Below, piece by piece: positions 2,891 through 64,000 of a stretch of DNA of 64,000 bases. How positions within the stretch are numbered: the first letter of the stretch is position 1; the number at the start of each line of letters is the position of its first letter. The DNA is from Anaeramoeba flamelloides (Eukaryota > Metamonada > Anaeramoebidae). The stretch spans positions 3,467,501 through 3,531,500 of the forward strand of contig JANTQA010000036.1 in NCBI GenBank assembly GCA_027625915.1. The letters run 5' to 3'. Below the pieces are notes generated by a model. That model was not told the DNA's origin, did not search any database, and saw nothing but the letters and a program-made list of their open reading frames with translations. A program made the position numbers and the translations under genes.

Positions 2891-3773
2891 AAAAAAAAAA
2901 GAATTAATTATTTTCAGGTTCAATTTCAATTTCATTATGTGGTCTTCTTAGTGGACGTAAACTAATATCATAATTAGTTAGAGCACAGCAAATCTTAAAT
3001 ATTTTTGAGTAGTCCCCTAAATCCCCCCTATATCGAAAGGATAGAATTTTAAATTTGTTTTTTAATCGACCATATTAATTTTCAATGATAATTCTATCCT
3101 TCGATACCTTTTGGTTATAGAGTTTTTGTTCTTCACTGAGGGGTCGGTTTCTTGCCTTTTTAATGGGTAGTATGGCTAGACAATCATGTTGAATACCAAC
3201 ATAGCCTTTATCACCCATAACTGGATGTATTTGGAATTGTTCAATCATGTTAGACTCTCTCCAAAGAGTAATATCATGGTCTTTTCCAATTTTCCCACAG
3301 TAGACATGCATAACTCTCCCATCAGGGCAGTTGATTATCTGTGATTGTATTACATTGCATCCATGTTTTCCAGAAAACCAATACTTCTGGTTTCTCAAGG
3401 GTCTTTCAATTGGCTGTACTGTAGCATCCACAACAGCCAAGGCATTGGGAAAGTTCGAGAACATAATGTTATTTTCTTCAAGTTGGTCTTTACTATACCA
3501 CTTGATAAAATGTTGTATTAGAGGTTCATAACAATCCTCTAGTGCAATATTGATTAAATTAAAAACTTTTCTCTTGGTAAGGTTATAAGAAATACCAAGT
3601 TCTTCGTAAGTGTGGTATTTTCTGAGCCACACCAACAAAATGTAAAATCTCTCCTTTATTGGGGTCTTGATTTGTCTACCCTTTCTAATTCGACCCAAAG
3701 ATGCTTGACAAATTTCAAAAAGATTATTAAATTCCTCCTCCGAAAAGCCAATAATTTTCTGAGAAAAATTCAT
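2891..3773 (-). pseudogene. IS5/PIF-Harbinger-type DDE transposase with one in-frame stop
   Basis: The first 232 codons (3773 down to 3075, ATG start) encode a DDE_Tnp_4-type transposase. An N-terminal helix-turn-helix includes YHTYEELGISYNLTKRKVFN. The first catalytic Asp lies in AVVDATVQPIERP, the second in GKIGKDHDITLWRESN, followed by the family motif MGDKGYVG. The expected Glu is in RIIIEN. A TAA follows at 3072-3074, and the same frame then continues with YGRLKNKFKILSFRYRGDLG and IFKICCALTNYDISLRPLRR to a final TAA near 2917, which is the normal C-terminus of this family. Thus only a single in-frame stop separates it from a full-length frame of about 285 codons. It lies inside the inverted-repeat element described separately and is probably inactive, but young compared with the LINEs nearby. 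Confidence 0.8.
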
Positions 3774-4232
3774 TAGGTTAAAAAATAAAATTTTTTTGAG
3801 ATAAAAATTTTATGATCATTTTTTTTTACTCTAAATTTTGTTCAATCTAAAGAACCAGAAATTTCGTAATTTATGTTTCGTAATATAATTTACGAAAAAA
3901 GTGTAACAAAACATAAATTACAAAATTGATATAACGGAACACCAATTACGGAATACAAGTTCCGTATTATAAATAACTAAACAAAAAATAAAAGAGAAAA
4001 AACTTTTCAATTTCTAAACAACCTTTTTCAAAACCAGAGGGCAAATAATTAGAATCCAACCCTAAAAAAATTTTCCAAAAAAACTTATTCCGTAATACAT
4101 ATTACGGAATATCTCTATTTATTAAAAATTTTTTTTGAATAATAACTCTTATTTCCAAATTTTTTGAAAATTTAAAATAAGAATAGAAAACTCAGTTGTG
4201 TTTTATTTAAAATTTTATGGTAGACTTGGAAA

Positions 4233-5231
4233 GACTGTAATTGTCAAGATAATACAAAAAACTTTTACTGTTAATTTTCATTTAATAAATGAACAATTTT
4301 GAATTCAAGTTCTTAAAATATTGTTTCATCAATGTACTGAAATAAACAGAAATAAAACAAAACACCTTCAAGAAACAAAAATTATCACATCTTAATTTGG
4401 TTCTTTCTGGTTGAACTTTGAGAGAAAATTTAAACTTTCTTTTCTAAGAGAATCTCACAGAATAAAAAGAAAAGAGATATCTTTCTGAGAAAAAAATATT
4501 CTGTTTGTTAAATGTCTTCAATTTCAAAATCGAATTTTAGAGCCAAAATATTTTTTTAATATGAATAACCCAACTAATTTTTTGAGATTCTCTTTTGATC
4601 TAAGCTTGGTAACAAACACAAAAATATTGATTATTTTTTTCTTTTATAATTATTGCTGTTAAAATTTATTTAAATAAAATTGAAAAAAAGAAAAGTAAAT
4701 TATTATTTGTAATTGAAAATGAACTATAAATTCATCAAAAATGTTCAAAAAAAATAAATTTTTGCTTTTTTTATATATTCCATTTAAAAGATCTCTTTGA
4801 ATTTTAGATCAAAGAGTCACAAATTTAAAAAAACTTTACACAAACATTTTTCCAATTTCGTAAAAAACGTTAAATCTGGAAAAGCTAATTGTAATTTTCT
4901 CTTATTTAATTTTACAAGTATAAGAAAGTAAAAAACAAAATCTTGACAAATCTCTTTAATACATTCAAATTTGTATTTATAACTAGAAATAGAGAAAATA
5001 TTTGGACAAAGTGCATAAATTGTACTGAATGAAAATTTTGTGGAAAAAAAAACTAGACTTGGAAAAAATTAAATTTAATTATGAGTTATAACCAAAAAAA
5101 TTAAAAGGTTGTTAGAGCCAAAAACACAATTTTAAAACCATTAAATATTGAAAAAAAAGTTAAGCTTCTCAATTTTTTCTTAAAAATACTCAAAAATAGA
5201 ATTTTACTTTTTTCTTTAAAATTTTCTATTT
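4233..5231. other. AT-rich stretch without gene
   Basis: Low-complexity A/T sequence with short oligo-A and oligo-T runs. No coding frame, RNA gene or clear inverted repeat was recognised. Confidence 0.5.
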
Positions 5232-8200
5232 TTTTTTCTCTATTATTGAAGAAGTGCAAATTACACTCAAAATACCCTTATACTTTAATTTCCATTTCAG
5301 AAATTTAAGAGTGGAATCATAGATTTCACGATTATTAATTAATGAAAATAATTTCAAATAATCACAGTTTAAAATTATTTCATTAAGATTTATAACTTTT
5401 TAATTTATTTTGAAATATTAATCTATCTTTTTCATAGGAAGGGTATACCCATAAAAAATGATCAATATTTTCTATAACTTCTTTTTGTTCACTCTTTAAA
5501 CATAAAGGACAAAATTTATTAGAATTTTTATTGGTTACTTCGTATTATCTATTTAAGAAATTAGTAAATATTCTGAATTTTAGAATTGTTGAGCTTGATG
5601 AATAACTTAAGTATTTTTGAGTTTTAAATAAATATTTTTGATTTTAATTATTTTGAAATATTTTAGTGGAGTGTCAGGTCAAGTTCCGTCAAGAATCGTA
5701 GAGTGTCATAGAGTGCCCCCAAGTGCCTAGGTTTTTTTTAATTTGAGAAATAAAAAAAACTAACGATAAGTGTCATCAAGTATTGTCAAGTTCCGAGGTT
5801 TTCTTGAGGTTTTCTGTTTTATTTGTGAAGTGTTCTAGTTTTTTTTGAGTTTTCTATTTATTTGGAAAATCAAAAGATTTTCGTTAGGCTTTTTTGAGTT
5901 TTCTATTTATTTCAAAAAGTAAAAAAAACCTAGAACACTTCACAAATAAAATAGAAAACCTCAAAAAAACCTAGAACACTTTACAAATAAATAGAAAACC
6001 TTGAGAAAACCTAACAATATTCGATTGATTTTCCAAATAAATAGAAAACTCAAAAAAACCGAACGAAAATCCTCTTGATTGTACAAATAATCAGAAACCC
6101 CAAGAAAACCTAACAACATTTCACAAATAAATAGAAAACTCAAAAAAACCTAACGAAAACCCTCTTGATTGTAAAAAAAAAAAAAAAAAAAAAAAACAAC
6201 GACACTTCCAACTAGTAGAATTCAACAACTCTTTATATGCATACTTATATATTTCTTTTTTTAGTTCGATTAAATCTTTAGAATTCCAATTGATTTTATT
6301 ATTTATTCTTTGGTTAAATTTTATTAATTTTTCTAAATTAGGAAGAGATAAATTTCCTAATTTATTTTTGAATTTGTATTTTTTTTTATTTACTAAAATT
6401 AATTTATTTTCAATTTTAAAACAGGTTTTGGAAATAAGAATTGGTGTATTTCTGTTTATTTTACATATTCCAGTAATACACGAATTCATCCAAGAATTTA
6501 AATAATTTTATTGTTTTTATTTCATAATTATATATTTCTAATCCATATGTCAATTGGTTTGTTATAAAAGATTTAAATAATCTAATTTTTAAACTATTGT
6601 TCAGAGGGTTGTTATTGAATAATTGCTTACAGTTGTTATATGTTTCTTTAGATTTTTTTAAATTATAAACTATATGTAGAATTTTATCTAAATATATACC
6701 TAAATATTTAATCTTTTTTAAAACTTTTTATATAAATGTTTTATCTTTATTATGTTTTGATACAAATTGAATAATAATTTCATATATTGAATTTAATTTC
6801 TTTGATTTATTCGCTTTATATTTCATTTTATAATTAAAATTAAATCATCTGCAAACGTTTGACAATGATTTGTTAATGGCATTATTTTTAATAAAATAAA
6901 ATGTGAAATAAGAGCAAATAAAATAGGAGATAATGAATCTCCTTGAAATATACCAAGTCCTTTACCTTGATAATATTTTGATAAAAAATTTTTAATAATT
7001 TCATTTCAAATAAATTTTTTTATTGTTTTTCTTATTATTTTAAAATTGATTGAATCAAAACATTTTGCTATATCATATATCATAATATATGTTTTATCAT
7101 TTTCATTTTCTTTTTTGATTTTATCTTATTATAAATATTTTTGAAATTTAAGAATACAATTCGAGTATCATATTTTTTTCGAACCCCAAATTGGAATTTA
7201 TGAATATATTCACAATAAGGTTCGATTATTTTATATAACATTTTCAGAAATAATCTTCGCAAATCTTAATATAATTGAAATTTTCCTATAATTCAAAAAT
7301 ATACCCCTTCATTTCATTTTTTATGAATAAATAAAAATTGACTTTTTTTAATATATTCAATATTATTCTTATCAGTAGGAGTTAATTAACCAATTTTTAA
7401 ATATATTTTGAATTGTAATAAGATAATTTTTATAATTTATATTTTCATTTTGGTCAAGATTTGGAATGAAGTCATGATAAATAATATATTTTAAATTTTC
7501 AATTTTTTGAAATCCTTTAACAGAGTTATTTTTTTTGAATTTTTAATAGTGTTTTTAATATTTTTCAATAGGAAAAAAATATATCAATTTTAAACTCTTT
7601 TATATTTTTTTTTTTTTGAGATTTTTGATAAAATCTAAAATATTTTGATGCTTGGTTCAATTGAATTTTTTTTTAATATAACCAAAATATTCATCAATCG
7701 TATTTTTATTATTTAAAATCATTTTCATTTTTTTAGACCTTATTAAGTTTATTTTTTTCCAAAAATTTTTGTTTTTAACAAATTCTAAGTTTATTTCATC
7801 TATGAATTTATTCCAAGCTTCTTTATTTATTTTTTTTTGATACGATGACTTAAGTTAGGACTACTTAAAATCTTTTTAATTAATGGTTCGGTTTTATGGC
7901 CATTTTTATTTTCTTTATAAATTATATGTGTATATTTGATAAATTTATTTTTAATATTTTTCATAGAATTAGATATTCAACATAAATTTTTTTTCACAGA
8001 AATAATTAATAAATTCTTTTTTGATAAATATTATAATTATTAATCTTATATATTTATTTTAAATATTCCAGTCTGTTTTTAACATTAATATTATTAATTA
8101 TCATTTTGTGGTCTGATAAATTGTTTTTTATTGATTTTGAAAGATTTTTTTTATTTTTAATATTAATTAAAATATTGTCAATATTATTTGTTCTACTATT

Positions 8201-18169: not shown

Positions 18170-18422
18170 AAGTGTAGTGTTTTCCAAAAATCAAAAGAAT
18201 AGAGTAAAATCAAATATTTTACTTAATTCTTTTGAATTCTGGAAAACCTAACGTGAAGTGCCGGAGAGTTCCATCAAGTGCCTAGTTTTTTCAAAATTTA
18301 AAATAATTAAGTAAAATCTTTGATTTTACTCTATTCTTTTTAAATTCTGGAAAAAATAACTCCAAATAGGATGTATTTTTGTTGAGCCACCTCTTTTCAA
18401 TAATAAAAAAAAAAAAAAAATA
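18170..18422 (+). mobile_element. palindrome-array element with A-rich tail
   Basis: Two palindromic modules of the CAAAAGAATAGAGTAAAATC type (about 18185-18250 and 18290-18355) are joined by a linker with GAAGTGCCGGAGAGTTCC and AAGTGCCTAG. The element ends with CTTTTCAATAATA followed by a long A-run (18403-18420), similar to the LINE-B tail, which sets the orientation as plus. Confidence 0.6.
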
Positions 18423-23317: not shown

Positions 23318-23990
23318 ATTACTTCCTCTATTAAAATATAGATTAATTTTTCGAAACAAATTGAAAAGAATTAAACATTTTTTTTTTTATTATTTAACAT
23401 GAGAGTTGAAAATTCCTCTTATTTATCTGTTAGGTTTTCCAGAATTTAAAAGAATTGAGTAAAATCTATGATTTTTTTCTCTATTCTTTGAAGTTTGAAA
23501 ACCACAGTTAGCTTGTTTTTTATTCTAAGAAATAAAGAAAATTTATTTAATTTTTTTTACCTTACAAAAATTAAAAAAAACCTAGGCACTCGACGGCACT
23601 TGACTGTACTTCTCAAATTCCCAAATTGTGATTTAGAAATTTTTTTAAAGACTCAAAAATAAGTTTATTACCCACTAAGGCTAATAAATATGATGAATCT
23701 CTTTTTCTAATAATATATAAATTATTAAAAATATTATTTTTTAATATACCAGAAATATTAAATTTTTTTAATTTAGATATCAAGATTTTACAATTATTTT
23801 CATAGGCTAGGCGATTCCAGAGAAAAGAATTAAACACTAATGAATTAATTTTAAATCAAAACGTCCTTTGAAATTTTTTTCTTTCATTAATAATCCTCAC
23901 ATCTATTATTTTGTTCTGTTACATTTCAGGAAAATTAAGATAAAGGGTATCTAAAGTGTAATCTACACTTCTTGAAAAACAATAGTGAAC
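23218..23990 (+). mobile_element. LINE-A 3' fragment, opposite orientation, split by LINE-B
   Basis: LINE-A sequence on the plus strand continues outward from the right arm to about 23375, is interrupted by a minus-strand LINE-B piece, and resumes to a 3' end at about 23950-23985 with AAGTGTAATCTACACTTCTT. Together with the fragment at 22318 it forms two LINE-A 3' ends facing away from each other. Confidence 0.6.
23385..23850 (-). mobile_element. LINE-B 3' end: C-terminal frame, palindrome array and tail
   Basis: On the minus strand, 23837-23613 encodes 74 residues including NNIFNNLYIIRKRDSSYLLA and LVGNKLIFESLKKFLNHN. The same protein segment recurs on the plus strand at about 58700-58830, in a second LINE-B. 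Directly after the stop comes the linker CAGTCAAGTGCCGTCGAGTG, then two palindromic modules, then GATAAATAAGAGGAATTTTC and a tail TAAATAATA plus A-run at about 23387. This copy shows that the palindrome array lies in the LINE-B 3' untranslated region. Confidence 0.65.
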
Positions 23991-24146: not shown

Positions 24147-27100
24147 TTATTTTTGTGAATTTTTCAATTTATCGGATAATTCGATTTTTTCTAGCTTATC
24201 TAATTTTTTTTGTACAACTACTTTATCAAGATTTGAACGAAGTTCTTTTGGAAGATCAATTAAAATCTGTTCCATTAATTGAACATATTTATCAAATAAT
24301 TCCCAATCGTCATACTGCTTGGCAACATCAACTCGTTTACCTAACCTCATAAAAAGATTAATTTTTTCTGGATCACCACCTTGTTTAAAAAGTTCATAGG
24401 CTTCCAAATGAAGAACTGCCTTTCTCCAATATTTCCAAAACACATGTGCACATAAATTCCTTTTATTTTGGTACCATACTTTAAAAGTCTGTGTATGGAT
24501 AAATTTACGATATAAAAATTCGCAGTCAGTAACTTCATGCTTTTGAAATGGCAAAGATGATTTACCATTCGTCAATTGTTGAATAAATTCATTTTCATCA
24601 AACCCCTTCAATACCATCCGAGTGTAAAATGGCTCTAAACTGCCCATGTCAGGTATAAGCGTATTAAAATAGACTTCAAATGGGTTCATAAAATCATTGG
24701 TGAATGAAAAAAAGTAATCACGGATTGCTGTTGTTTTTTGAGAGGACTCTTGCGCATAACTCACATTTTTTTGTACCTGGGTTAACCATTTTAACATTTG
24801 CTTATGAACTAGAACAATCGACTGTTTGTCCATAAATAATCCTTGTTTCACCCGATCTTTCTTCTTCTTCTTTTTTTCACTATATAGAGAATAATTTTAA
24901 AATGAATCAAAAAAAAAAAAAAAAAAAAAGAGAAAGAAATAGTTTGAATCTTTTTTTTGTTTGGAAAAAATGAAAATAAAAATGAAAATTTTTTATAAAA
25001 AATCTAGAAAAAGCCAGAAATAATTTTTCCAGATCTGTATATAAGCTATTTCCAAAAAAAAACGGGGAAAATTTATTTTAATTTATCTTTATTAAACCCA
25101 ATCCTCAAGAAATTATTTAAATATAGAAAAATATTAAGAACCATTTATTGATTCTTTATAATAATTGGATTTTGTTTTTTAATATGGCAATTACACAAAG
25201 AAAAGATAATAAATTTTCTGATCATTATTTTATATTACATTTTTTTATGGTGAAAATTGGTGTTCATTATTTATGATCGAAAAAATCGTTTTACTCAGCG
25301 AAATAATCTTGTCAAAATTTCCAATAGAATGGAAATATTATAATTTAATTTCATTGTTTAAAAAATCTTTTGTATCCTTATCATATTGCCCGTTTTTTTA
25401 TTGAAATTGGTCGAAAATTTTTTTTCTCCCCAAAAAAGTACACTTTTTTTCATTTTTTGGAAATATTTCAACAAACATGTTTTGAAATAAATACAATGGT
25501 GCTGATTCAATCGGTATTAATATTTCACTTAATTTGGTATTACCAATTTACGAATTGATCTGCTAACAAAGAGAATTTTTGATGAAATCCAAAAAAAAAG
25601 CCCCACTTTTTTGGAAATACCTTATATACATATCTTGTCATTAGTTAATGATAAAGGAAAATTATTATTCTTTATTAAAATTTCAAAACAAAAATTTCGA
25701 AATTAATGAATAGCCTCAAGTTTCGTGGAGTGCCTAGGTTTTTTTTTAATTTAAGAAATAAACCGAAAATTGAATATATTTTTGTTTATTTCAAAAAGTA
25801 AAAAAAATCTAACGAAAACCTATTGATTTTCCGAATAAATAAAAAACTCAAGAAAACCTAACAGCTCTGAGTTTTTAATTTGAGAAATAAAATAAAAAAC
25901 AAAAAATTTTTTTTGTTTCTCAAATTTTAAAAAAAATCTAACGGCGATTTTCAATAATTCAAAAGAATTGAGAAAAATATTTGATTTTACTCTATTCTTT
26001 TAAATCCTGAAAAAGCTGATGGCGTTTTTTTTTAATTCTTGTTTTGTTTCTAAAATCTATCGATTTTCCAATCAAAACAAATTTCAAAAAAAACTAACAA
26101 CAAGTGCCGTCAAGTCCCTAAGTTTTTTATAATTTTAGAAATAAAAAGAAAATTTTTGAAATTTTCGGTTTAATTTCTAAAATTAAAAAAAACTTTTCGG
26201 CTGTTAAAGGAAATTAATTACCCCCCTTCAAAATAAAAAAAATAAAATAAAATCAATTTAATAATTTTATTTTGATAAAAATATGGAAAAAAAATTTGAT
26301 CTCATTGAAACAATTTTCTTTTCTGGGTTTTTGAGTAGATAATATTTTTTTGGTGCTTGTATTAAAAAAAATAATAAATTAATTAAATATTACAAATAAG
26401 ACATTTTGATATTTTGGAACTTTCACAAAATTTATACCAAAAAATAAAAAAGCAAAAAATATCGAAAAATACTTACATATCTCTATCTGGAAGTCCAATG
26501 AATAAATGGTTAGGCCAATGATAAAATGTTGACACGCCAAGAGAATAATCTGTTGTGCCAACAATGATTGATTTTCTGGATTCAACTTCTTCTGTAGTTA
26601 ATTTCTCTTTTGGTGTAAAATCTATCGAACGGATAAAATTCCAATTTTGATCATATTTGGTGCAATAGGGTATTACATAACCTTGATACTCAAAAGGGTA
26701 TATTAAACTGCATAACGCCCGTACCACTTGTGAGCATATTTCAGGCTGAGGAGCAAAGACAACTATTGACTCGCCGGTAATTAAAAGTTGCCACAAGTTC
26801 CACAAATCATCGAAAGCGGGCCATAAAAGCTCACAAATATCCAAATCTAACCCGAAATATCTCTCATAGCAAGACACTTCGCCACTATGTTCAAAGATTG
26901 ACTGCGGCTCTCCGGGGATGAACACACGGAGCCTTTGTTCTGGGGTTAATGGAAACTCTTCATAGCAGTAATTTCTTTTTAATTCTGTGGGCCAGTTTTC
27001 AACAATAAAATCAAACCAGGCCTCTAATCTTCCAGGATCGTCCATAATGTCTGGTCCCAATTCCTCTAAGAGACACGTAAACAAAGATTCCCATGGGTGC

Positions 27101-37167: not shown

Positions 37168-38088
37168 TATATATTAGTTCACTTTGTATAATATATTTTT
37201 ATTTGATCTTCTTATTCAAAAGATACCAAATAATTGGTAAATTAGATAAAAATAATGAAAAGTATTCCAATATTTTGATATAACAAAAGTTCTTATTGTG
37301 CATAATTATCAAATTTATTTCTTCTTCATTCTTTACAAAATTTCTAAAGATAAAACTTTAAAAAATGTAAATTATAATTTAGAATTAACAAAAGGAGATA
37401 TAAATTTTTTTAAAATGGAAAAATAATTTTCAACTTGTTTTGGGAAAGATGTTGGTGGAAAATATATGATCATATAATGAAATAAAATTAGAAAAAAATA
37501 GTTTAATTTCAAGGGATATATTGGATAATTTATTCTTTTAGATGTTTGTTTTAATATTGGGTTGATCTTGTCTGGATTTTTATAGATGGAACAAAATGAT
37601 TAATTAAAAATTATAGTTGAAAAATAAAATATTTATTTTATTGAAAAGAAAATTGTATTAAAGAAAGTCGAATATATAGAACGTAGAGATTATGAGTTAT
37701 TTAGTTTGTTAGTTATGTAAATAATATAATATTTGGAAGATATTATTATTTTGGGAATGATCAATTAAAATAGATATAAATAGCTATCAATTGTCTTGGA
37801 GAAAAAAACTTGTAAAATTGCTTTTTTTTGTCAAAAATCTCTTAAAGATTACATTCTAATATCTTAAAAAAGTAACTTTTTTGACAGTTCCATAGCTCAG
37901 TCGGCAGAGCGCTGTGCTAATAACGCAGATGTCCAGAGTTCGAGCCTCTGTGGAACTATTTTTTTACTTTTTTTTAAATCTAAGATATTGAAAATGTTAA
38001 TGAGCTGACAAACTATTGATTTCTTTTTTTGGAAATTGCAAGATCTTTTTCTTTTTTATTTTTTTGATCTCATTTTAAAAGTTTAATT
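37168..38088 (+). repeat. segmental duplication containing tRNA-Ile, copy 1
   Basis: About 920 bp is repeated in the same orientation at 40933-41852 with few differences; both copies contain one intact tRNA-Ile(AAU). The shared block starts near TATATTAGTTC and ends near TTTAAAAGTTTA. Confidence 0.85.
37886..37958 (+). tRNA. tRNA-Ile(AAU), copy 1
   Basis: The 73-base gene folds as a standard cloverleaf. The acceptor stem AGTTCCA pairs with TGGAACT and the discriminator base is A. The D stem is GCTC/GAGC. The anticodon stem CTGTG/CGCAG (one G-T pair) holds the loop CTAATAA, so the anticodon is AAT, read as Ile after A-to-I editing. The T arm is CAGAG-TTCGAGC-CTCTG. There is no intron. A T-run of seven starts 2 bases after the gene and serves as the pol III terminator. 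Identical in sequence to the second copy at 41653. Confidence 0.97.
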
Positions 38089-40932: not shown

Positions 40933-41852
40933 TTATATATTAGTTCTCTTTGTATAATATATTTTGATTTGATCTTATTATTCTAAAGGAACCAAATAAT
41001 TGGTAAATTAGATAAAGATAATGAAAAGTATTCCAATATTTTGATATGTGAATATTCTTATTGTGCTTAATTATCAAATTTATTTCTTCTTCATTCTTTA
41101 CAAAATTTCTAAATATACAACTTTAAAAAATATAAAATATAATTTAGAATTAACAAAAGAATATATAAATTTTTTAAAATGGAAAAATAATTTTCAACTT
41201 GTTTTGGGAAAGATGTTGGTGGAAAATATATGATCATATAATGAAATAAAATTAGAAAAAAATAGTTTAATTTCAAGGGATATATTGAATAATTTATTCT
41301 TTTAGATGTTTGTTTTAATATTAGGTTGATCTTGTCTGGATTTTTATAGATGGAACAAAATGATTAATTAAAAATTATAGTTGAAAAATAAAATTTTTAT
41401 TCTATTTATATGGAATTTGTTTTAAAGAAAGTCGAATATATAGAACATAGAGATTATGAGTTATTTAGTTTGTTAGTTATGTAAATAATTAAATATTTGG
41501 AAGATATTATTATTTTGGTTATGATCAATTAAAATAGATATAAATAGTTATCAATTTTCGTCGATAACAAAACTTGGAAAAATGTTTTTTTTTTGTCAAA
41601 ACTTGTAGTTCAGGATTACATTCTAATATATTAAAAAAATGACTTTTTTGACAGTTCCATAGCTCAGTCGGCAGAGCGCTGTGCTAATAACGCAGATGTC
41701 CAGAGTTCGAGCCTCTGTGGAACTATTTTTTTACTTTTTTTAAAATCAAAGATATAGAAAATGTTAATGAGCTGACAAACTATTGATTTCTTTTTTTGGA
41801 AATTGCAAGATCTTTTTCTTTTTTCTTTTTTTGATCTAATTTAAAAGTTTAT
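40933..41852 (+). repeat. segmental duplication containing tRNA-Ile, copy 2
   Basis: Second copy of the block at 37168-38088, same orientation, 3.77 kb downstream. Differences are mostly in A/T runs and short stretches next to the tRNA. Confidence 0.85.
41653..41725 (+). tRNA. tRNA-Ile(AAU), copy 2
   Basis: All 73 bases are the same as in copy 1, with the same cloverleaf, AAT anticodon and A discriminator. A T-run of seven follows. The bases just 5' of the gene (TTTTTTGAC) are also conserved between copies. Confidence 0.97.
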
Positions 41853-42915: not shown

Positions 42916-43584
42916 AAACTCCATTTCACTTAAAGTTGCCTAGCTAAAAATGAAAAATTCACTTTTTTTTCAAAATCAACCATACTAAGATTCTGAGGAA
43001 TAAGAGAAATAAAAAACTCGGATTCGAGTCAATAATCATAAACAAAATACCCGAAAAATCTATAAATTCAAAAAAAAAAAAAAGATAAAAAAACTTCTTT
43101 TTCGTCAGTTTTATTGGAATGTTTCGTGCAAAAATTCTCAATTACTTTTCTAAACTTAAAATTTTTTTCAATAAGATTTTATTATATGAAATGTTTGAAT
43201 TCTACAATAAAATACAAAGTCTAATTTTTTTTAATGTTAATTTGGACTTTATATAAAAATTTTTTTTTCAAATTTATATTTTGAAAAAATAACAAAAAAA
43301 GAAAAAAACGGGTGTAAAAACAATCAATAGAAGAGAAAAAAAAATGACAAAATGAGAAAAAATGATTTTGATTTTTAAAATTGAAAAAAATATTTTGAGA
43401 AGAATAATGAATTAAACTCAAAAAATATGTTCTATTTCTTTAAAAAAAACTGCGATCCTTAGACTGAAAAAGAGTTTACCTTACAAAAATAAAAAATATA
43501 AAATACCTTTTTGTCAATTTATTTCTCAAATTTTGTTGAATCTTTATTTATTACTGGTAATATTTATTTAGGTTTTTAACCACT
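42916..43584. other. AT-rich stretch without gene
   Basis: No gene recognised. The short frames at 42959-43421 on the minus strand are Phe-rich shadows of A-runs. Confidence 0.4.
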
Positions 43585-44455
43585 CCTGTTTCAGGGGACG
43601 TGTCATCAAGTTCCTAGGTTTTCCATAATTCAAAAGAATAGAGTAAAATCAAAGATTTAACTCTATTCTTTTTAATTATGGAAAACCAAACGGCAGTTTT
43701 CTTGAGTTTTTCTGTTTTATTTGTAAAATCTATCGATTTTCGTTAGGTTTATTTGAGTTTTCTATTTTATTTGAAAATCAATAGATTTTCGTTGGGCTTT
43801 TTTTTTTGCTTTTTAAAATAAACCGAAAATTTATTAAAATTTTCTGTTTATTTCAAAAATTCAAAAAAAAACCTAGAACACTTCACAAAAAAATAGAAAA
43901 CTTCAGAAAAACTAATGGCGTTTTTCATTTAATTTCAGAAATTAAAACAAAATTTAGGAATTTTTTTTTTAATATCTCATTTTAAAAAAAAACTAAGGGC
44001 GGTTTTCCAGAATTCAAAAGAATGGAGTAAAATCAAAGATTAAACTCAATTATTTTAAATTTTGGAAAACCTAACGAAAAGTGCCGTAGAGTACCTTGGT
44101 TTTCTTGAGATTTTCTGTTTTATTTATAAAATCTATCGATTTTCCAAATAAACAGAAAACTGAAGAAAACCTAATGGCACTTTTCCAGAATTCCAAAGAA
44201 TAGAGAAAAATATTTGATTTTGCTCAATTCTTTTAAATTTTGGAAAAGCGAAATTGGGTTATTTTTTACTTTTTGAAATAAAACAAAAATTTAACAAAAT
44301 TTTTGGTTTATTTCTCAAATTAAAAAAAAACTCAGGCCAAACAAGAAGAATTCTAAACTCCTCCATTAAATTACAATAAAAAAAAATAAATAAAATCAAG
44401 GTTTTTACTCAATTCTTTCAAATCCAGAAAAACCGAACCACAGTGGCTAATTTTT
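43585..44455 (+). mobile_element. longest palindrome-array element
   Basis: Starts with GGGGACGTGTCATCAAGTTC and contains about seven palindromic modules of at least three sequence types: the AGAATAGAGTAAAATC type (43618-43688, 44002-44070, 44185-44250), the TTTATTTCAAAAA/TTTCTCAAATT type, and the TTTTCTTGAG type (44097-44170). Linkers are CTAACG, AGTGCCGTAGAGTACC and similar. It ends with TAAACTCCTCCATTAAATTA and an A-rich tail (44370-44395), matching the LINE-B tail at about 58855; a half module follows. Confidence 0.65.
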
Positions 44456-45520
44456 AATTTATTCATGTAAATGATATTATATTTTTGTACTTTCATATTT
44501 TAATTATTTTTCTTCTTCTCTTTTTTATTTAGTAAATTTTCTTTTATTACTCCTTTCTCACAATAAATAAATAAATAAAAACTACCTTTTCCTTTCAATT
44601 ACTATAAAATCTTTTTCAAACAAAAGGATACACCATCTCAAATAATCAATACCATCTAATTTGATTATTAATTAGATAATTTCTTTTTGGTGATTTGCAT
44701 TTTAATTATTCATTTTTCATTTTTTTTTATTTATGGATATTGAACAGTTGGAAAATGAAAAAGCAAGATAAGAAGAAACACATTTGGAAATAATCTACCA
44801 TTGTACAAATGAAACAATTTAAGTTTGGTTTCGAATGAGTTAGATGTAGGAATTAAGAAAGATCATTATTGGATTGGTGCCTCGAACAAAGAAAAAAAGA
44901 TAAATAAAGAAAAAACATTCCAACAAAATATCCAATGAATTACGGCTTTATCTTGAAAATGAGATATTAAAGAACAAAAGTTTGACTTTTCAAGAATTAC
45001 AAATAAAATGTAGAGAAATTTTTCTCAATTCACCATGTTCAAAGGTTTTTAGTGATTTTATTATTTTTTTTCTTTACCATTTACAAAACGAGATTTCTCA
45101 TTTCAAATAAAATCACACACCAATTTTTAAAATATTGAATTTTAATTTTTATTTTATAGTTTATTTTTTAATGAGTTTTAAAGATTCAGTTGAGTGTTTT
45201 TTTATGTTTTTAAGCATCTCAGATATTTTAGAATGATACTACAATTAATTTGTTTCAATTATGAATAATTCTTGAAATTTTTTGTACCCTTTTTTTGATT
45301 TAGAGTTTATAATTTATTTTTATTTAAAAAAATAATGATAATAATAATTTGAAAATTAAAGATAAAAAAATAAAATAAAATATAGAGAATAATTATAACA
45401 TTATAAATTATAGAGGCAATAGTAAAAATAATTTGTATAAAAAAAAAACAAAAAAATACAAAATATACTTGTAGTGTATCAAAAACTAACACCCTGTCAA
45501 AAATTTTCAAAATTAAAGTA
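44456..45520. other. AT-rich flank with a decayed helix-turn-helix coding remnant
   Basis: The gene-like part is reported separately at 44732-45055. The remaining sequence is A/T runs; an open frame at 45307-45510 on the minus strand is Ile/Phe-rich and not convincing. Confidence 0.35.
44732..45055 (+). pseudogene. possible DNA-binding (HTH) transposase remnant
   Basis: One frame from the ATG near 44732 keeps protein-like content for about 105 codons but with five stops: MDIEQLENEKAR, EETHLEIIYHCTNETI, VWFRMS, ELRKIIIGLVPRTKKKR, then HSNKISNELRLYLENEILKN and KSLTFQELQIKCREIFLN. The last part has the spacing of the second helix-turn-helix of Tc1/IS630 transposases; VWF recalls a homeodomain-like recognition helix. 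No DDE domain follows. It is either a transposase N-terminus or an unknown pseudogene. Confidence 0.35.
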
Positions 45521-48028: not shown

Positions 48029-49159
48029 TTTTACGTAAGCAGTCTCGAAAATAAATATTCGAATTAATATTATCACAATTACAACCAACAATATTTTTTT
48101 AAAAACATATAAAAAGCGATCCTATAACTTTTCAAGATAATAATTTATCCTTTATTTCATTTATTATATTATCAGATATACAATGATAAAGCAATGAAAA
48201 ATTTCATTTCAAAATATCTTCAAAAGATATTCACTTTATTCTCTCATCGTAATCATATCTTTGTATCAAACAATAATAATATTTAAAATTTTCTCAAAAT
48301 ATTTTAAGGATTATTCGAATTTTATGGTTAGTGAATACTATTTTTCCACCTAGTAACATATTTAGTAACTTAAAAGAAAATATGATCTCAGCAATCTTGC
48401 TAACTTGTACAATTTAGGTTTTTTTGGAAAATTTTGTATTGGGAAAAAAACAATTTTCCTCATTCAAATCCAAATTATTCTCATCAAATTTTGAAGAAAA
48501 AAATTTCAGGAGGGAAATATCACTCCACTTTCTTTTCAAGTGTGTTAGAGTATAGCGAGAGAGTATAAATATACTTGAAAAGAAAGTGGAGTGGCATTTT
48601 CTGAATATCAAAAAAAATGGCTTTTTAGTTTTGCCTTGTTTTGTTCGTGAAATTCAACAAGTTTTTAGTCAAAAAATGATTTACAAGCAAAATCTAAAAA
48701 ATCCCAAAAATTGCAATATTTTGACTTTTCCTCAATTCATTGTCTTTTAAAGCTTTTTTTATGTTTATAGTATTTTATTTCAATCTTCACTGAGTATAAA
48801 ATTCGAATAGTCCTAAAGATTTAAGGGGATTCAATAAAAAATTAAAATTTTTGACCACAAAACAAAAACAATTCAACTGAACTCTTGTATTATCTCAACA
48901 AGATTTCATTTTATTTTTAAAAAAAATATCGTTGCCTTAAAAAAATTTAATTGTTAAAATTCTGAAATATATTTTGGGTCATGAAAATAGAAATGAATTT
49001 TCAAATAATTTTCAATTGATAAAATATTTATTTGATAAGTAAAAAAATATTTGAACAAGAAAGAAGAAAAACGAAAAACAAAAAATAATGATTTTAAAAA
49101 GAAAAAACATAAAATTTCGACTCAAACTTACTCAATTTAATAAAAAAAAAAAACAGAAC
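48029..49159. other. AT-rich stretch with a strong hairpin
   Basis: No gene recognised. Holds the 21-bp perfect inverted repeat listed at 48521-48593. Confidence 0.45.
48521..48593. repeat. perfect 21-bp inverted repeat, 31-base spacer
   Basis: CACTCCACTTTCTTTTCAAG plus T (48521-48541) is exactly inverted at 48573-48593. Pairing can extend outward with mismatches. The spacer GTGTTAGAGTATAGCGAGAG and following is not T-rich like its surroundings. It may be a small foldback element or a hairpin RNA; no second copy was seen in the window. Confidence 0.75.
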
Positions 49160-49800
49160 TTTCTTTTTTTATTATTAAAGAAGTGTAAATTACACTCTAG
49201 TTGCCCTTAGACTTAAATTCCCTTTCATAAATTTAAGCGGAAAATCATAAATTTCATGATTATTAATTAATGAAAATAATTTAAAACTATCACAGTTTAA
49301 AATCAATTCATCAAGATTCATTTGTTTCAATTTATTGTGAAAAATCAATCTATCTTTTTCATAGAAAGGACATATCCATAAAAAGTGATCAATATTTTCT
49401 ATAATTTCCTTTTGTTTATATTTTAAACATAAAGGACAAAATTTATTTGAATTTTTATTAATTACATCGTACTATCTATTTAAACAGTTAGTCAATGTAC
49501 CGAATTTTAGAATTGTTGAGCTTGAGGGATAACTTAAATATTTTTGAGTTTTAAATAAATAATTTTGTTTTTTTATTATTGTGAGATATTTTTGGACCTT
49601 CCGACTTGTTGAATTCAACAACTCGTTATATGTGTATTTGTATATTTTTTTTTTTAGTTCAATAATATCTTTTGAATTCCAATTAATTTTATTATTTATT
49701 CTTTGATCAAACTTTATTAATTTTTATAAATAAGGAAGAGATAAATTTCCTAATTTCTTTTTCAATTTAAATTTCTTATTATTGATAGAAATTATCAATA
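49160..49800 (-). mobile_element. LINE-A 3' fragment without insertion
   Basis: On the minus strand it carries ELLNSTSRKVQKYLTII, then NYLFKTQKYLSYPS, then NKFCPLCLKYKQKEIIE and NIDHFLWICPFYEKDR, with few stops, and the 3' palindrome AGTGTAAATTACACT at about 49184-49199 beside a T-run. This is the best preserved LINE-A C-terminus in the window and shows the sequence that is interrupted at 5668-6200. Confidence 0.75.
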
Positions 49801-50409
49801 AAAAACAATACTTTCCCTGAATCTTTTAATATACGTTTATTGAAATCAAATACACATTTGAAAAAAAAAAAATTTAAAAGATTCTGAATTAAAGATAATT
49901 CATTATATGGGAAATTTTAAGGATTCAAATAGCTATAAAAATAATTATTTATTGATCTAAAAACTTGAGAAAATTTAGAACAAAATTTTAATAGATAATA
50001 AAAAATGAATTTTGTTTGCTCAAGGTACTCATTAAAGACTTCATTTTCTAGTATATTTAAGGATAGCTGTTCTCAATAAATTCTGAAGAAACCTCACTGA
50101 ATCTCTTTTTTTATTTTGGTTTATGTTCTTCAAATCCTTTATCCAAAAGATTAAAATAAATTATTATTGAAAAAAATATTTTTGATTTTTTGGTGTTTTT
50201 TTTTTCCTACCTTTGGTTTTTTGGTTCTATTCTAAATATCCAAATACTACAGAGTCATAATTTATAGTAGTGTTGATTTATGGTGTAATTAATCAATTTT
50301 TCTGAGTTATTATTATTTATGTATGAATAACTGGTCCAAATTACAAACCAATGGGATAAAACTCTTCTTAGGTATATTTATAAGTCCTTGTTTAGTGAAC
50401 ATTTAAACT
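49801..50409. other. AT-rich stretch without gene
   Basis: No gene recognised. Confidence 0.4.
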
Positions 50410-51390: not shown

Positions 51391-51705
51391 CCGTTCAGTT
51401 TTCCAGAATTCAAAAAAATAGAGTAAAATCAATAGATTTTACTGAATTTTTTGAATTCTGGAATACCGCCGTTAGCGTTTCTTGAGTTTTCTGTTTATTT
51501 GTGAAGTGTTCTAGGTTTTTTTTACTTTAGAACTAAACCGAAAATTTATTAATATTTTCTGTTTATTTCTAAAGTAAAAAAAACCTAACGAAAATCGATA
51601 GATTTAACAAATAAGACAAATAACCCAAAAAAACCTAACGAAAATCTAATGATTTACCAAATAAATAGAAAAATCAAAAAAACCTAACGAAAATTTATTA
51701 ATTTT
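51391..51705. mobile_element. palindrome-array element without tail
   Basis: Three types of palindromic module in sequence: 51399-51462 (module A), about 51520-51590 (AAACCGAAAATTTATTAATA between inverted arms) and half-modules of the AAATAAATAGAAAAATC type to 51705. Linkers are CCGTTAGCG and CCTAACGAAAAT. No A-rich tail at the right, so its orientation is uncertain. Confidence 0.55.
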
Positions 51706-51765
51706 CGAAATTTGATCAACTTTTTGCAAATTCAATCCAATAAAATGAACATGATTACAAGACAA

Positions 51766-57399: not shown

Positions 57400-58880
57400 T
57401 TCGAATAACAAAAAATAAAAGAAGATTTAAGTTAATTCAAAAATTAAAGACCCTTGGTTTTGGTTTATTAATAATCGTCTTCCTTTTTGAGAAAAAGAAT
57501 TTGAAAATATTAACTGGCAATCAAATAACTTAAAAGAATGAGAAATTGAACTGGATAAATATCGAATTAATCAATTAGAAAATAGCTCAAGTTGGAAATG
57601 TCGTTAGGTTTTTTTTAATTTATAAAATAAACTGAAAATTTTTGAAATTTTCTTTTTAAACTCTGTTTCAGTCAAAGGGGCCCAACGTTTTTTTCAAATA
57701 TCAATTATTTTATATAATTGACCTTTGAAGAACAAATAAGAAATAAACAGAATAATACACCTCAAAGAAATGTTGATACGTGTCTGAAAGAATATTAATA
57801 AATCAATAGCTTTTCTTAAAAATTTCAAAACTCAAATTCTTAGGGCCCTATTGAGAAAAACAACGATGTTTGTTTTGAACTTCTACTGGTATTTGAATAA
57901 TAAATATCAAACATTTTTCACTTCATTTTGCATACTTTTCTTTTAGAAATTAAGCCCTCAAACAAAGTTTGTTGGTATTTGTGGTCTCTATTTGAAAAAG
58001 GAAATGAAAATGACGTGAATATTTTTCACATTTATTAAACAAATATCAAGATCAAAGATCGAATTGAATTCCAATAGAAATCAATATCATTTCTCAACAA
58101 TCTTTACATGGTTTCAATGACCTTAGAATAACAAGTTTTGACCAAGTGACAATTGATCTTGCAATAAAAAATTTTTTGCAAATGAATGACGTTTTTAAAA
58201 AAAAATCGAAAAAAAAAACAAAAATGTGTAGAAATGTGAAAAAATGATTTCAATTTTAAAAATTTCCAAAATAAAATTTTTCTTCTAATATCTATGCAAA
58301 CCCTTTAAACACCATGTATTATACCATTACAACTGGCCCCTTTGACTGAAAAATAGTTTATTTCTCAAATTAAAAAAAAAAGCTAACTGCAGTTTTCCTG
58401 AATTCAAAAGAATATAGAAAAAAAATCTATGATTTTACTCTATTCTTTTAATTTTGGAAAACCTAATGACAAAGGATATTTAAAATGGAAGGGTTCAACT
58501 TCAATTTTAAAACTTCGAAATTTTAGAAATTATTTAAATAGATACTCTTATGTTATGAATAAAAATAAATTAAACTATAGTTAGATATGTAAAAAAAAAT
58601 AAATAATTTAGATATCATTGAAGTTATGGACCATTATCTATGGAATGGCTCAACCCATGAAAATAATCGTAAAATCGGGATATATCTCTTATTTTGTTTA
58701 ATAATAATATTTTCAATATTTTTGATATTATTACAAAAAAATATTCATCAAGTTTATTAATTTTAGTAGATAATAAACTTATCTTTGAGTCTTAAACAAG
58801 ATTCCTAAATAAAAATTTAGGAATTCGGTCACACAAGAGGGGCTAATAACTCCTCCCTTAAATAATAATAATAAAAAAAA
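57400..58880 (+). mobile_element. LINE-B fragment interrupted by other elements
   Basis: 57400-57612 keeps traces of a post-RT segment (ENINWQSNNLKE in one frame, then NSSSWKC). A break filled by palindromic modules and a family A MITE follows. From about 58490 the LINE resumes (WKGSTSILKLRNFRNYLNR; then MDHYLWNGSTHENNR, NNNIFNIFDIITKKYSSSLL, LVDNKLIFES) to a 3' tail AACTCCTCCCTTAAATAATA with A-run near 58878. The frame has several stops. It is related to LINE-A but has a different 3' end. Confidence 0.6.
57886..58047. mobile_element. MITE family A, copy 2
   Basis: Left end CTGGTATTTGAATAATAAAT after TA; right end TTTATTAAACAAATATC in inverted orientation. The order of internal blocks matches copy 1 at 2098. 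It lies within the interruption of LINE-B. Confidence 0.6.
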
Positions 58881-58884
58881 GGGC

Positions 58885-59135
58885 AAATTTTTTTGTTTTA
58901 TTGTGTAAGTGAGGTTTTTTTCGTTCCTCTTGTTTGCCGTTAGTTTTTTTTAATTTGAGAAATAAACCGAAAATATATTTAATTTTCTGTTTATTTCTCA
59001 AATTAAAAAAAAACCACCGTTAGTTTTCCAGAATTCAAAAGAATTGAGAAAAAACCGAGATTTTACTAAATTCTTTTAAATTCGTGAAAAGCTAGGCTCT
59101 CTTCAGCACTTGACTGCACTCTATGGCACTCACTA
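58885..59135 (-). mobile_element. palindrome-array element, minus orientation
   Basis: Read on the minus strand it starts with GAGTGCCATAGAGTGCAGTC and AAGTGCTGAAGAGAGCC linkers, then module A (about 59020-59095), then a near-perfect palindrome at 58944-59013 whose arms pair for 23 bp (AATTTGAGAAATAAAC and its inverse). It abuts the LINE-B tail, giving two elements tail to tail. Confidence 0.55.
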
Positions 59136-60390: not shown

Positions 60391-63300
60391 TTAATCTGAT
60401 TCTACAACATTTTCATTAATAATCCCACCATTTGGTATTATATTTTCATCCATTTGTGGAAAGCAACCCTTTTTAATTAAGAATTGTATTCTTTCGTTTT
60501 CGTTTACTTTATTTTTTGTAAAAGATCCCGCGCCATTTTTGTAAACGAAAATCCCGCCGCCTTTATTTTCTGTTACTTTATTGTTATTGACCACTGGCGA
60601 AGATCCTGATTCGACGTCTATACCTCTTAATTGGTTTAAATAAATTTCATTATTGGTAATTTTACCTTTTGTATTTTGATAAGCAAAAATACCAGATCCT
60701 GTATTGTGATGGATTTTATTTTTTTCGACTACCGGGCTTGAGTTAATTTTGGCTTGGAAGCCGCTTAATGTGTTTCTAAAAATATTGTTTTTTTTATATA
60801 CGCCTGTGGATTGGTTGTATACAAATATTCCAGATTCCTCATTCCGGAAAATTTGGTTATTGAGCACCCTTGGGTTTGAGTTGTCCTTGCAGGCGATCCC
60901 TGTTTTACCATTTAAAAAGATTTCGTTGGACGAAATTTCCCCTTTGCCGTTTTCAAAAATGAAGCATCCCGCTTGTTGGTTATGGTGGATTTTACAGTTT
61001 TGGATTTGGGGGTCGGCGCTTGAGCGTATGGTCACCCCTGAGAGCTTATTAAAGGAAATGTCGCATTTGTGCAAGAGGCACGTGGATCCGTTCATCACAA
61101 CGACCCCGCCTTCTCCGTTTTTCGAAACCTTGGTTGTCAGGATATTAGACTGCGAATGGTTTGTAATAGCTATTCCTTGATAGCTGCACTCGATGACCTC
61201 ACAAGATTTCAAAGTACCCTTGGCCTTTTGGTGGAACACAACACCCACTCTGCCGTTATGAATTCGGCAATTTGTTATGACGGGATCTGCGCCTTTGCGA
61301 ATGGATAACGCGGCATTGCCGTTTCCTGCGATGTTGCATTTTTCCATCTCCAATTTCCCAGAAACGATATCAACAGCATAAAATTTTAGGCCCTTTTGCC
61401 TGAAAAAGATATTGGAAACTTTCCCGCTCGTGGTTCTAAAAGTAAAGGTGCTCTTTTGAGAGTTTTGAATAATCACATGTTTCTCATCCTTCGTTATACC
61501 CACAAACTCCAAATTTGGCTTTCTCACGGTGATCGATTCTGTATACGTGCCAGGTTGAATTTCGATGATGTCTCTGTTAATGGCACACTCTAGGGCTGAT
61601 CTTATTGTTGTAAATCTTGTTTCATGTCCCTTGGCATCAACAATAATCTTTCGGTTGCCATCAGTTAAAACAATAATTCCATTTTCATTAATTGGCGGAA
61701 AGTTTTTTGTGACATGCTCTCCTTTTTTGGTGAGCGGTGTTTTTAAATCCATGTCTAGTATTGACGGTTTTGAACTTTCCTTTGGCGTGGTGATAATATT
61801 TTTTATAATATCATTAATTGGAATTTCTTTTTTTTTTTTTATATATTTTTTGTCACTGCTTTTATTCTGCTCCTTATTATTCTTTATTCCATTACCCGTT
61901 TCGGTCTCCCCCCCTCCTTCTTCACCAATCTCATTCTCATTGTCTTTGTCTTTATCCATAAAGCTGATTTTTTCAATAAGAATTATTTTGTTATTTGATT
62001 GGGTAACATTATTTTGATCTTCGTTGGTGTCAAATTTGATTGTTCTTTCCTTAATTGTAACAATTTTATTATCAATAATTTTACCCCTGCCGCCTTCTGC
62101 CACATGGATTCCACCATAATTTTTTTCGATTATATTTAGTTGGATATTTGGACTAGATCTGGAACCTATTAAGATCCCAAATCCTCTATTCGACAGAATT
62201 TTATTTTTAATTAAATCACCATTTGTTTCGTTCATAATTTCAATCCCAGAGCTTCTATTCTTGGTAATTTGGTTATTTTTTAAAATAACCTTTGAAGCAA
62301 TTGATTTTAATCCGCAAATTTTATTTTCAGATATTTGATTTTCAATTATATGGACATCTGGTGATGTTGTTATTAAAATACCATGCTGTTGATTTTGTAA
62401 AATTTCATTTTGCTTGATCATCGCATGCTTGGCGTCTTCAAAAAAGATTCCACTTAAATGGTTTTTATAAATTAAATTTTCTTCAACAAAAAGCTTCCCC
62501 TGGTTCCTAATAGCTATACCATGACTACAGCCCGTTAATTCATTTCTTCGGATAATGGGTATCGACTTTGGCCCCTTTGATAAAATACATGCAAATGGAG
62601 GATTGGGACTAGTGCTTTGAATGTAACACCCTTCAATTCTTGTGTTTCCCTTAATAATTTCAACAATCCCAAAGTTAGATCTGACTTTATTGGTGTTATT
62701 TTCCAAGGTTAAATTGAACAATCCACAATTGTCTGCCTGGAATCGAAAAATGGGCCTTGCAGATGACGAGGAAATAATGATTGATTCTGCAGAAATGCTT
62801 TTTTTACCTTGAATTCTTAACCTTGGTATGGTGATATCTAGCCCATCAGTGTAATAAATCCCAGAAGATAACTCAATAATGTCTTCAGTTTGTGCCAAAT
62901 AAAGCGCTTCAGTTAAAGTTGTAACATTTTCACCTTCAGTCCCCACAGTGATAACAGTTCCGATCCTTCTATGCCCATATGAAAAGGATCCAAAGCTATT
63001 ATTAGAAAAATTTCCCTTAATTTCGTTACCATACTTTTGTTCATACCCCTTTTGTGATTTGGAGCGATTTTCTTTTTCTTCCATTTCTTGCTTTTGCTCT
63101 TGCTTTTGCTCTTGCCCTTGCTCTCGCTCTTGCTCTTGCTCTTGCTCTTGCTTTTGCTTTTGCTTGCTTTTTTCATCAATCTTTGGATCATCAACAAATA
63201 ATATTTTTGTTAATAAATTTAATTCCTCTTTTTTGGTTTTTCCATTCTGTTGCTCCTCTTGGATTTCTAATCTTTCAATAATTTCATCAAGTTGATTATA

Positions 63301-63552
63301 TACTTCTTCAAATGTTAACCTTCGATCAGGTTCTTCACTCCAACACGTTTCAATTAAAGTTTTAATTTCGGGATCAATTTGCTCGCTAATTTTCGGCCGT
63401 TTGGGGTTATTGTTTGTATTTTTAAAATGAAATGCAAAGATTTGATTCTCTGTTAAATCAAGGAATGGCCTTTCTTTGGAAATCATTTCTAATAAAATAA
63501 GTGAAAATGAATATACATCACATTGATAACTATAACTTTCTGCTCTTGCAAC
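60391..63552 (-). CDS. protein kinase (TKL-like) fused to two parallel beta-helix domains, 5' part outside window
   Basis: The last exon runs from an acceptor (AAAAAG, next to 63552) to TAA and encodes 1,053 residues. Residues 1-95 are the end of a protein kinase C-lobe: VARAESYSYQCDVYSFSLIL follows the place of the APE motif, then EMISKERPF and TLIETCWSEEPDRRLTFEEV, typical of TKL kinases. The HRD and DFG motifs must lie in exons beyond 64000. A Gln/Glu/Lys-rich linker (residues about 125-160) follows. Two right-handed beta-helix domains (CASH/NosD type, as in FBXO11) follow: residues about 198-500 and 620-1035, made of about 23-residue rungs such as SGIFVYNQSTGVYKKNNIF and GGIFVYKNGAGSFTKNKV, each introduced by a cap segment with TLTEALYLAQTEDIIEL or FTTIRSALECAINRDIIEI. 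The beta-helix may bind carbohydrate or protein. No signal peptide can be judged. Base composition is clearly less AT-rich than the flanks. Confidence 0.85.
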   Translation of the reverse strand, partial: VARAESYSYQCDVYSFSLILLEMISKERPFLDLTENQIFAFHFKNTNNNPKRPKISEQIDPEIKTLIETCWSEEPDRRLTFEEVYNQLDEIIERLEIQEEQQNGKTKKEELNLLTKILFVDDPKIDEKSKQKQKQEQEQEQEREQGQEQKQEQKQEMEEKENRSKSQKGYEQKYGNEIKGNFSNNSFGSFSYGHRRIGTVITVGTEGENVTTLTEALYLAQTEDIIELSSGIYYTDGLDITIPRLRIQGKKSISAESIIISSSSARPIFRFQADNCGLFNLTLENNTNKVRSNFGIVEIIKGNTRIEGCYIQSTSPNPPFACILSKGPKSIPIIRRNELTGCSHGIAIRNQGKLFVEENLIYKNHLSGIFFEDAKHAMIKQNEILQNQQHGILITTSPDVHIIENQISENKICGLKSIASKVILKNNQITKNRSSGIEIMNETNGDLIKNKILSNRGFGILIGSRSSPNIQLNIIEKNYGGIHVAEGGRGKIIDNKIVTIKERTIKFDTNEDQNNVTQSNNKIILIEKISFMDKDKDNENEIGEEGGGETETGNGIKNNKEQNKSSDKKYIKKKKEIPINDIIKNIITTPKESSKPSILDMDLKTPLTKKGEHVTKNFPPINENGIIVLTDGNRKIIVDAKGHETRFTTIRSALECAINRDIIEIQPGTYTESITVRKPNLEFVGITKDEKHVIIQNSQKSTFTFRTTSGKVSNIFFRQKGLKFYAVDIVSGKLEMEKCNIAGNGNAALSIRKGADPVITNCRIHNGRVGVVFHQKAKGTLKSCEVIECSYQGIAITNHSQSNILTTKVSKNGEGGVVVMNGSTCLLHKCDISFNKLSGVTIRSSADPQIQNCKIHHNQQAGCFIFENGKGEISSNEIFLNGKTGIACKDNSNPRVLNNQIFRNEESGIFVYNQSTGVYKKNNIFRNTLSGFQAKINSSPVVEKNKIHHNTGSGIFAYQNTKGKITNNEIYLNQLRGIDVESGSSPVVNNNKVTENKGGGIFVYKNGAGSFTKNKVNENERIQFLIKKGCFPQMDENIIPNGGIINENVVESD
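63075..63171 (-). repeat. Gln/Glu codon repeat in the kinase/beta-helix gene
   Basis: Hexanucleotide CAAGAG/CAAAAG-type repeats encode an alternating Gln-Glu/Lys linker. The plus-strand frames over it (Cys/Ser or Ala/Leu) are shadows. Confidence 0.8.
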
Positions 63553-64000
63553 CTTTTTGGGTTTTTTTATTTATTTTATTTTGATTTAATATTGATTTAT
63601 TTTTTATTTATTAGATATTTATTTTTTTTATTATATTGTTTGTATTTATTTTTTATTTAATAGAAATTTATTTTTTTTATAATAAATTTTTTAGTTATTT
63701 TTTTTTCCATAATTTTTTTTTTTTTTTTTTTTATTCAAAAATACGTAAAAATAAATTTATTGATTTTTAAAGATTTATTTTTTATATTTTATTTTTATTG
63801 TTTTATGTTTTTTTTTTTTTCTAGAAAATGTCAAAATTTCAGACAACTACTATTCACCAAAGATTTTTTAATTTTTTGAAAAATAAAGCTGAACGAAGAA
63901 AATTAAAATGGAAAAAGAATAAAATTGTAATGTATTTTTATATAAACTCAAACTTTTTCTTTGTAAAAATTAAAAGTATATAATTCTTGATAACTACTAA
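63553..64000 (-). other. intron of the kinase/beta-helix gene (partial)
   Basis: Upstream of the last exon the minus strand is extremely AT-rich with TTTATT repeats and no kinase sequence, so the preceding exon lies beyond the window end; the intron is at least about 450 bp. Confidence 0.5.

Follow-up and report, generated by a model that had tools for sequence, protein, structure and literature searches.

The stretch shown raises the question of what a string of different short palindromes is, and how such a string comes to be assembled. It lies in a window of 64 kb (the whole stretch of Anaeramoeba flamelloides DNA analysed here), in which the sequence-only reading had described at least nine such loci, with at least three different palindromes joined by conserved linkers such as CTAACG. 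Iterated profiles bear this out and define the modules. Palindrome A is 71 nt long and palindrome B 76 nt, each with a perfectly palindromic consensus. Unit C is directional and 52 nt long; its halves either overlap to give a palindrome (44098-44174) or flank B on the left and right as a stem. The joints between modules are made of TAACGRC linkers and ~10-bp AAGTGCCGTM repeats (D). The string shown is composed as follows.

43600-43616, plus strand: D end (GTGTCATCAAGTTCCTA), the left boundary of the string (sequence)
43617-43687: palindrome A, copy 1, arm complementarity 94% (palindrome scan, profile, folding)
43696-43747, minus strand: C unit, stem half (profile scan)
43745-43796, minus strand: C unit, stem half (profile scan)
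43800-43869: palindrome B, flanked by left and right C halves (palindrome scan, profile)
43882-43915, plus strand: partial C unit, right stem half
43927-43993: palindrome B, decayed (profile scan)
44001-44071: palindrome A, copy 2 (profile scan)
44070-44097, plus strand: CCTAACG end followed by a new D run, the joint of two head-to-tail units (sequence)
44098-44174: palindrome C, left and right halves overlapping centrally (profile scan)
44181-44249: palindrome A, copy 3 (profile scan)
44258-44331: palindrome B (palindrome scan, profile)
44382-44434: palindrome A, partial, with the string end directly after it (CCGAACCAC) (sequence, profile)

Profile scans gave 39 module matches in the window, and all nine loci named in the sequence-only reading are represented among them. 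A palindrome scan of the same 64 kb (arms of at least ~22 nt, loops of at most 14) found eight non-overlapping palindromes, and none in each of five order-1 Markov resamplings; the eight map to six of the nine loci (18.2, 25.9, 33.1, 43.9, 51.5 and 59.0 kb). Modules are also present at 5.7, 23.5 and 58.4 kb, none of them passing the long-arm scan, and the 5.7-kb locus consists of C units and partial B pieces only. Single copies fold strongly because the modules are palindromes (z of -4.6 to -12.7 in eight folds of seven module copies). Among 348 module ends, 122 are of the TAACG type and 72 of the TAG type; at least 21 of these 72 mark where a C variant starts. Profile E, built separately for the TAGAACACTT variant of C, had one match, its own seed. 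The linker context GGAAAACCTAACGGCGGTTTTC has 1,349 matches in the genome at up to two mismatches, and its reversed control none. The variable order that had been claimed for the modules holds only in part, since several loci in a sample chosen by similarity to the query share the order D A C C B C B A .... One string elsewhere in the genome (L027, 2477-3020) begins and ends with D, its modules running D A C C B C C C C A D in a mirror-symmetric order.

The strings have defined boundaries. A unit has D on one side and CCTAACG(RC) on the other, the two element ends being TCGTGTCGTCAAGTGCC and CCTAACGRC. The D end sometimes starts with a TCGTGTCGTC head, followed by a variable number of the ~10-bp AAGTGCCGTM repeats and then TAGG, and the internal linkers TAACG-GC, TAACG-AC and TAACG-GT share the unit-end sequence. 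Outside these boundaries we repeatedly found a LINE with an RVT_1 domain and an A-rich 3' end. In many copies of this LINE the protein match runs continuously through sites that in other copies hold a string. Breakpoints recur near reference positions 1160 (S2), 1341 (S3) and 1536 (S4), as seen with 20 S4-occupied and 20 S4-empty copies, chosen for matching the pattern exactly from 100 listed occupied sites (of 1,030) and 100 listed empty sites (of 412); the continuous copies are those reading through S2 and S3. A further site, S1, is also string-bearing, and the host region is the C-terminal LINE coding sequence. Comparison of the locus at 5.1-6.3 kb and four loci elsewhere (L009, L011, L013 and L017) with an empty LINE copy in the same window (49.1-49.8 kb) shows the string to be an insertion in the LINE ORF. 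One LINE copy (L030, 6873-9207) carries strings at S1-S2, S3 and S4; LINE residues 225-245 and 247-312 lie either side of S3 and are nearly contiguous, and ~17 residues between S1 and S2 were not found. From the recurrent LINE points and the D-end and CCTAACG-end boundaries it follows that the strings are insertions, most of them inside LINE coding sequence, a point that the sequence-only reading had missed. The other strings of the window, and the empty LINE copy, are these.

5673-6206: string inside a LINE ORF, site S1 (LINE matches at 5230-5633 and 6199-7125, minus strand)
18179-18354: string with two A palindromes, LINE flank not confirmed (profile scan)
23433-23611: string A-B-D adjoining the end of a LINE ORF (match at 23598-23831)
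25733-26201: string B-C-B-A-C-B at LINE site S4, with a weak flank match of 71% DNA identity
33070-33263: string bridging LINE sites S2 (left) and S4 (right)
49102-50298, minus strand: X-type LINE copy with S1 empty near 49594, the reference for the empty state
51398-51711: string A-C-B-C-C, no LINE flank found
57600-58472: string between LINE sites S1 and S2, with a B palindrome interrupted by a separate element that carries terminal inverted repeats
58938-59130: string B-A-D at an S4-type site, with a weak flank match of 65% DNA identity

By tblastn and blastn, six of the nine window strings have LINE flanks (5.7, 23.4, 25.7, 33.1, 57.6-58.5 and 58.9 kb), the assignments at 25.7 and 58.9 kb coming from weak DNA matches. 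The same searches found no LINE flank for the three at 18.2, 43.6 and 51.4 kb. The string at 43.6 kb, shown here, is instead flanked by a recurrent context of ~220 bp, Y (43516-43600 and 44435-44575), which is also present at L026 and resembles flanks in L012, L022 and L030; patterns made from the Y flanks gave no match in the empty form and two in the occupied form. The ~690-bp element at 57663-58351 has terminal inverted repeats TTTCAGTCAAAGGGGCC and separates the halves of one B palindrome (57605-57658 and 58356-58379). Elsewhere in the window, a DDE_Tnp_4 transposase fragment (3075-3809) lies ~1.9 kb from the 5.7-kb string, and in a long ORF (60391-63570) right-handed beta-helix repeats are joined to the end of a protein kinase domain.

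Between occupied and empty copies at S2 to S4 any target duplication amounts to no more than ~2 bp (0-2 bp); at S1 the joint is ambiguous in this respect. We considered and rejected a 2-bp RC target duplication. It predicts a GC filler at the left joint, and this was present in only one of 100 listed S4 left joints. In addition, internal linkers carry RC after TAACG irrespective of the target, and RC may thus be part of the element. A GG|RC motif is likewise not a sufficient target. The LINE reference contains five GGRC motifs (772, 1111, 1178, 1338 and 1535), two of which coincide with S3 and S4 while that at 1111 lies beside S1; the remaining two show no use among the copies compared, and S2 has no motif. 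Nor do the strings behave as spliceosomal introns: their right border, CCTAACGRC, lacks AG, and the S1 strings of the X family are inserted in the opposite orientation.

How one insertion may come to hold several different palindromes can be seen at S1. In L011 and L017, CCTAACG or CCTAACA stands directly at the target, whereas in L009 and L013 the sequence goes on after CCTAACG with AAAAGTGTC, a D head, more palindromes and another CTAACG, and only then reaches the same target. Here an entire extra D-headed unit has been gained at an unchanged point, which shows that head-to-tail growth of strings is possible. The sequences examined contain 12 internal joints of the form CCTAA[CT]G-3 nt-AGTG[CT]C, all with exactly 3 nt between the motifs, and the reversed control gave none. 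A string thus appears to consist of units that entered one after another at a single landing point, with later reshuffling through recombination between sites, of which the string bridging S2 and S4 at 33.1 kb is an example.

It had been claimed that the arms of each palindrome change together so that pairing is kept, which was taken to point to selection or conversion acting on hairpin structure. We aligned 95 A and 95 B copies, keeping those that covered nearly the full profile and dropping shorter ones. For A, the two arms of a copy are no more alike (identity 0.821) than arms from different copies (0.826-0.837), and the claim fails; there were 23 compensatory pairs, compared with 14.6 in shuffles (sd 3.4, maximum 24, 200 shuffles). 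The arms of B are somewhat closer within copies (0.847 vs 0.810-0.821), with 112 compensatory pairs compared with 70.4 in shuffles (sd 6.6, maximum 93). This excess falls mostly at columns 13, 17, 18 and 27, which look like subfamily marks, and it is better read as inherited subfamilies. Independent variation of the arms, named beforehand as the outcome that would count against pairing being kept, therefore describes A and applies only partly to B. With copies oriented by their TAACG side, mismatches of the G.T and A.C kinds are about equally frequent, at 51 and 61 in 57 A copies and 26 and 29 in 52 B copies. Given that the A arms vary independently and G.T is close to A.C, the strings decay much like inserted DNA, and selection or conversion on hairpin structure is unsupported. 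Conservation as RNA or DNA structures, such as small-RNA precursors or cruciform sites, is accordingly highly improbable in our view. Module copies do fold strongly, B has its compensatory excess, and an Rfam E-value search with the focal string gave matches mostly to miRNA-precursor hairpin models. However, all of these matches are far below gathering scores, A has no arm co-change, and neither A nor B shows an excess of G.T. The strings look like hitchhiking parasites and not like hairpins under selection. At gathering scores, Rfam matched four tRNAs in the window and none within a string; two tRNA-Ile(AAT) genes of equal score lie on the same strand at 37886-37958 and 41653-41725.

We regard it as probable that the strings are copies of a target-specific, non-autonomous mobile element able to enter its own target again. 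Its unit would run from a D end through at least one palindrome to a CCTAACG(RC) end, and units would enter a few fixed points, mainly in the C-terminal LINE coding region, with insertion at S2 to S4 leaving no duplication longer than ~2 bp. Because the right side of the target would survive insertion, later units could enter the same point and head-to-tail strings of different palindromes would build up, their arms presumably decaying independently afterwards. Each gain would be a new insertion and not a gene conversion, the last palindrome before CCTAACG may serve as a recognition or stop signal, and an enzyme would act in trans. No coding partner was found in the single search for one, with Helitron_like_N (PF14214), which was empty for this genome and for the control genomes alike.

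The main rival to repeated insertion is one or a few ancient insertions into the LINE, spread by retrotransposition and ectopic gene conversion, with string content altered by recombination between arrays. Some copies have indeed spread with their LINE, as strings and LINE of the S1 family align jointly over ~920 bp. Most left joints at S3 are the same (25 of 37), as a single founder would also give; strings that bridge two sites have lost the intervening LINE; and A palindromes adjoining S4 (identity 0.885) are slightly more alike than random sets, 3 of 1,000 permutations reaching this value in the exact-match sample. Against a founder stands the scatter of occupied copies. Genome-wide, patterns allowing up to three mismatches counted 1,030 occupied and 412 empty S4 sites (controls 1 and 11) and 84 occupied and 393 empty S3 sites (controls 0), the ratios being rough since pattern length and the required string ends vary between them. 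In a tree of 43 LINE S3-S4 segments (of 46 matches, three without an assigned state were dropped), the 17 occupied copies are intermingled with the 26 empty ones, with 11 state changes compared with a shuffled mean of 13.6 (46 of 500 shuffles as low); this tree is weakly resolved, with 4 of 39 inner branches well supported and only two changes forced. One empty copy (L040) and one occupied copy (L061) have identical S3-S4 segments. The S4 left joint also falls into several classes: the filler between ATTAGG and AAGTGCCG, in 100 listed of 121 found, is G in 42, AA in 18, GA in 14, A in 12, GC in 1 and other in 13. The make-up of the S4 strings varies across the 20 copies compared, the simplest being one A and the longest, in L058, having nine modules. 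The same unit type occurs at four or more LINE sites and in either orientation, and is also present in flanks without LINE matches. We read the occupancy pattern as repeated insertion and consider the ancient-founder account unlikely.

If the strings do insert repeatedly, the chemistry might be that of known elements, and each comparison leaves a residue. R2 has a recurrent target in 28S genes, according to the part of one account that was available (PMC3414825). The strings resemble R2 and its non-autonomous derivatives in their recurrent target within a repeated gene and in a left joint at S4 that is variable beside a constant right joint, although the right joint is part of the pattern by which copies were selected. 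A SINE-like, target-primed retroposon in the style of R2, in which the 3' hairpin and CCUAACG of a structured RNA are reverse transcribed at a specific nick, would also account for the lack of a long duplication and for head-to-tail re-insertion; we think it a rather doubtful candidate. The mostly uniform S3 left joint does not fit it, the CCTAACG end has no poly-A, and most of 41 strings keep both ends (judged by eye). There is no tRNA, 7SL or 5S head in the window strings (ARAGORN and Rfam, the Rfam E-value search covering the focal string). Unlike R2, moreover, the strings target a LINE ORF at four or more sites and have a palindromic body.

Helitrons have a hairpin near the 3' end, make no target duplication, and have TC...CTRR ends inserted into A|T; the palindrome at the end of such rolling-circle elements functions in termination. 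Non-autonomous derivatives of Helitrons and Helentrons share with the strings a palindrome near one end, here directly before CCTAACG, the absence of a long duplication and the head-to-tail arrangement. A rolling-circle (HUH) mechanism, Helitron-like or REP/BIME-like with the last palindrome as terminator, nevertheless seems to us improbable: the strings end in CCTAACG(RC) and not CTRR, their target is neither A|T nor T|T, and they use several interchangeable palindrome classes. MITEs and Foldback elements have inverted repeats, modular arms and high copy number, Foldback combining long modular inverted repeats with a target duplication. The strings are alike in all three features, each A or B unit being a palindrome and thus carrying terminal inverted repeats, and some strings are mirror-symmetric. 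They differ in lacking a duplication of the fixed-length MITE type or of the Foldback type at S2 to S4, and in growing by whole units at the same target.

In bacterial BIMEs (bacterial interspersed mosaic elements, built of REP palindromes), conserved linkers lie between the units. BIMEs are composite repeats of short palindromes in alternating orientations and many copies, as the consulted portion of one paper describes them (PMC2817692). The strings are likewise mosaics of short palindromic units in many copies, and differ in being eukaryotic, in having palindromes of 71-76 nt and in having recurrent targets inside LINE genes. For each of the four comparisons, with MITEs, R2-like retroposons, Helitrons and BIMEs, at least one defining feature is either missing from the strings or only a possible match. 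The statement that no named family has this modular design agrees with our searches of Rfam and, as judged from titles and the beginnings of abstracts, of the literature. An account of A+T-rich Anaeramoeba genomes makes no mention of repeats of this type in the sections available (PMC11550330).

In five arbitrary 10-kb stretches we counted 24 modules (21, 3, 0, 0 and 0), covering 2.7% of bases. Together with the 39 in the 64-kb window, this gives something like a hundred thousand modules in the genome of 254 Mb, as a rough estimate. More tentatively, we suggest that the strings might be a eukaryotic counterpart of BIMEs: a hyperparasite made only of interchangeable palindromes and short repeats, with the last palindrome and CCTAACG as its end signal, lodged at fixed positions in LINE coding sequence by an undescribed chemistry that leaves no long target duplication, and filling most of the counted S4 sites and a few percent of the genome. 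If this is right, a non-coding palindrome element has spread by using the gene of another transposon as a fixed landing site. The hundreds of matched empty and occupied sites allow direct tests both of the insertion chemistry and of how mosaic palindromes arise.
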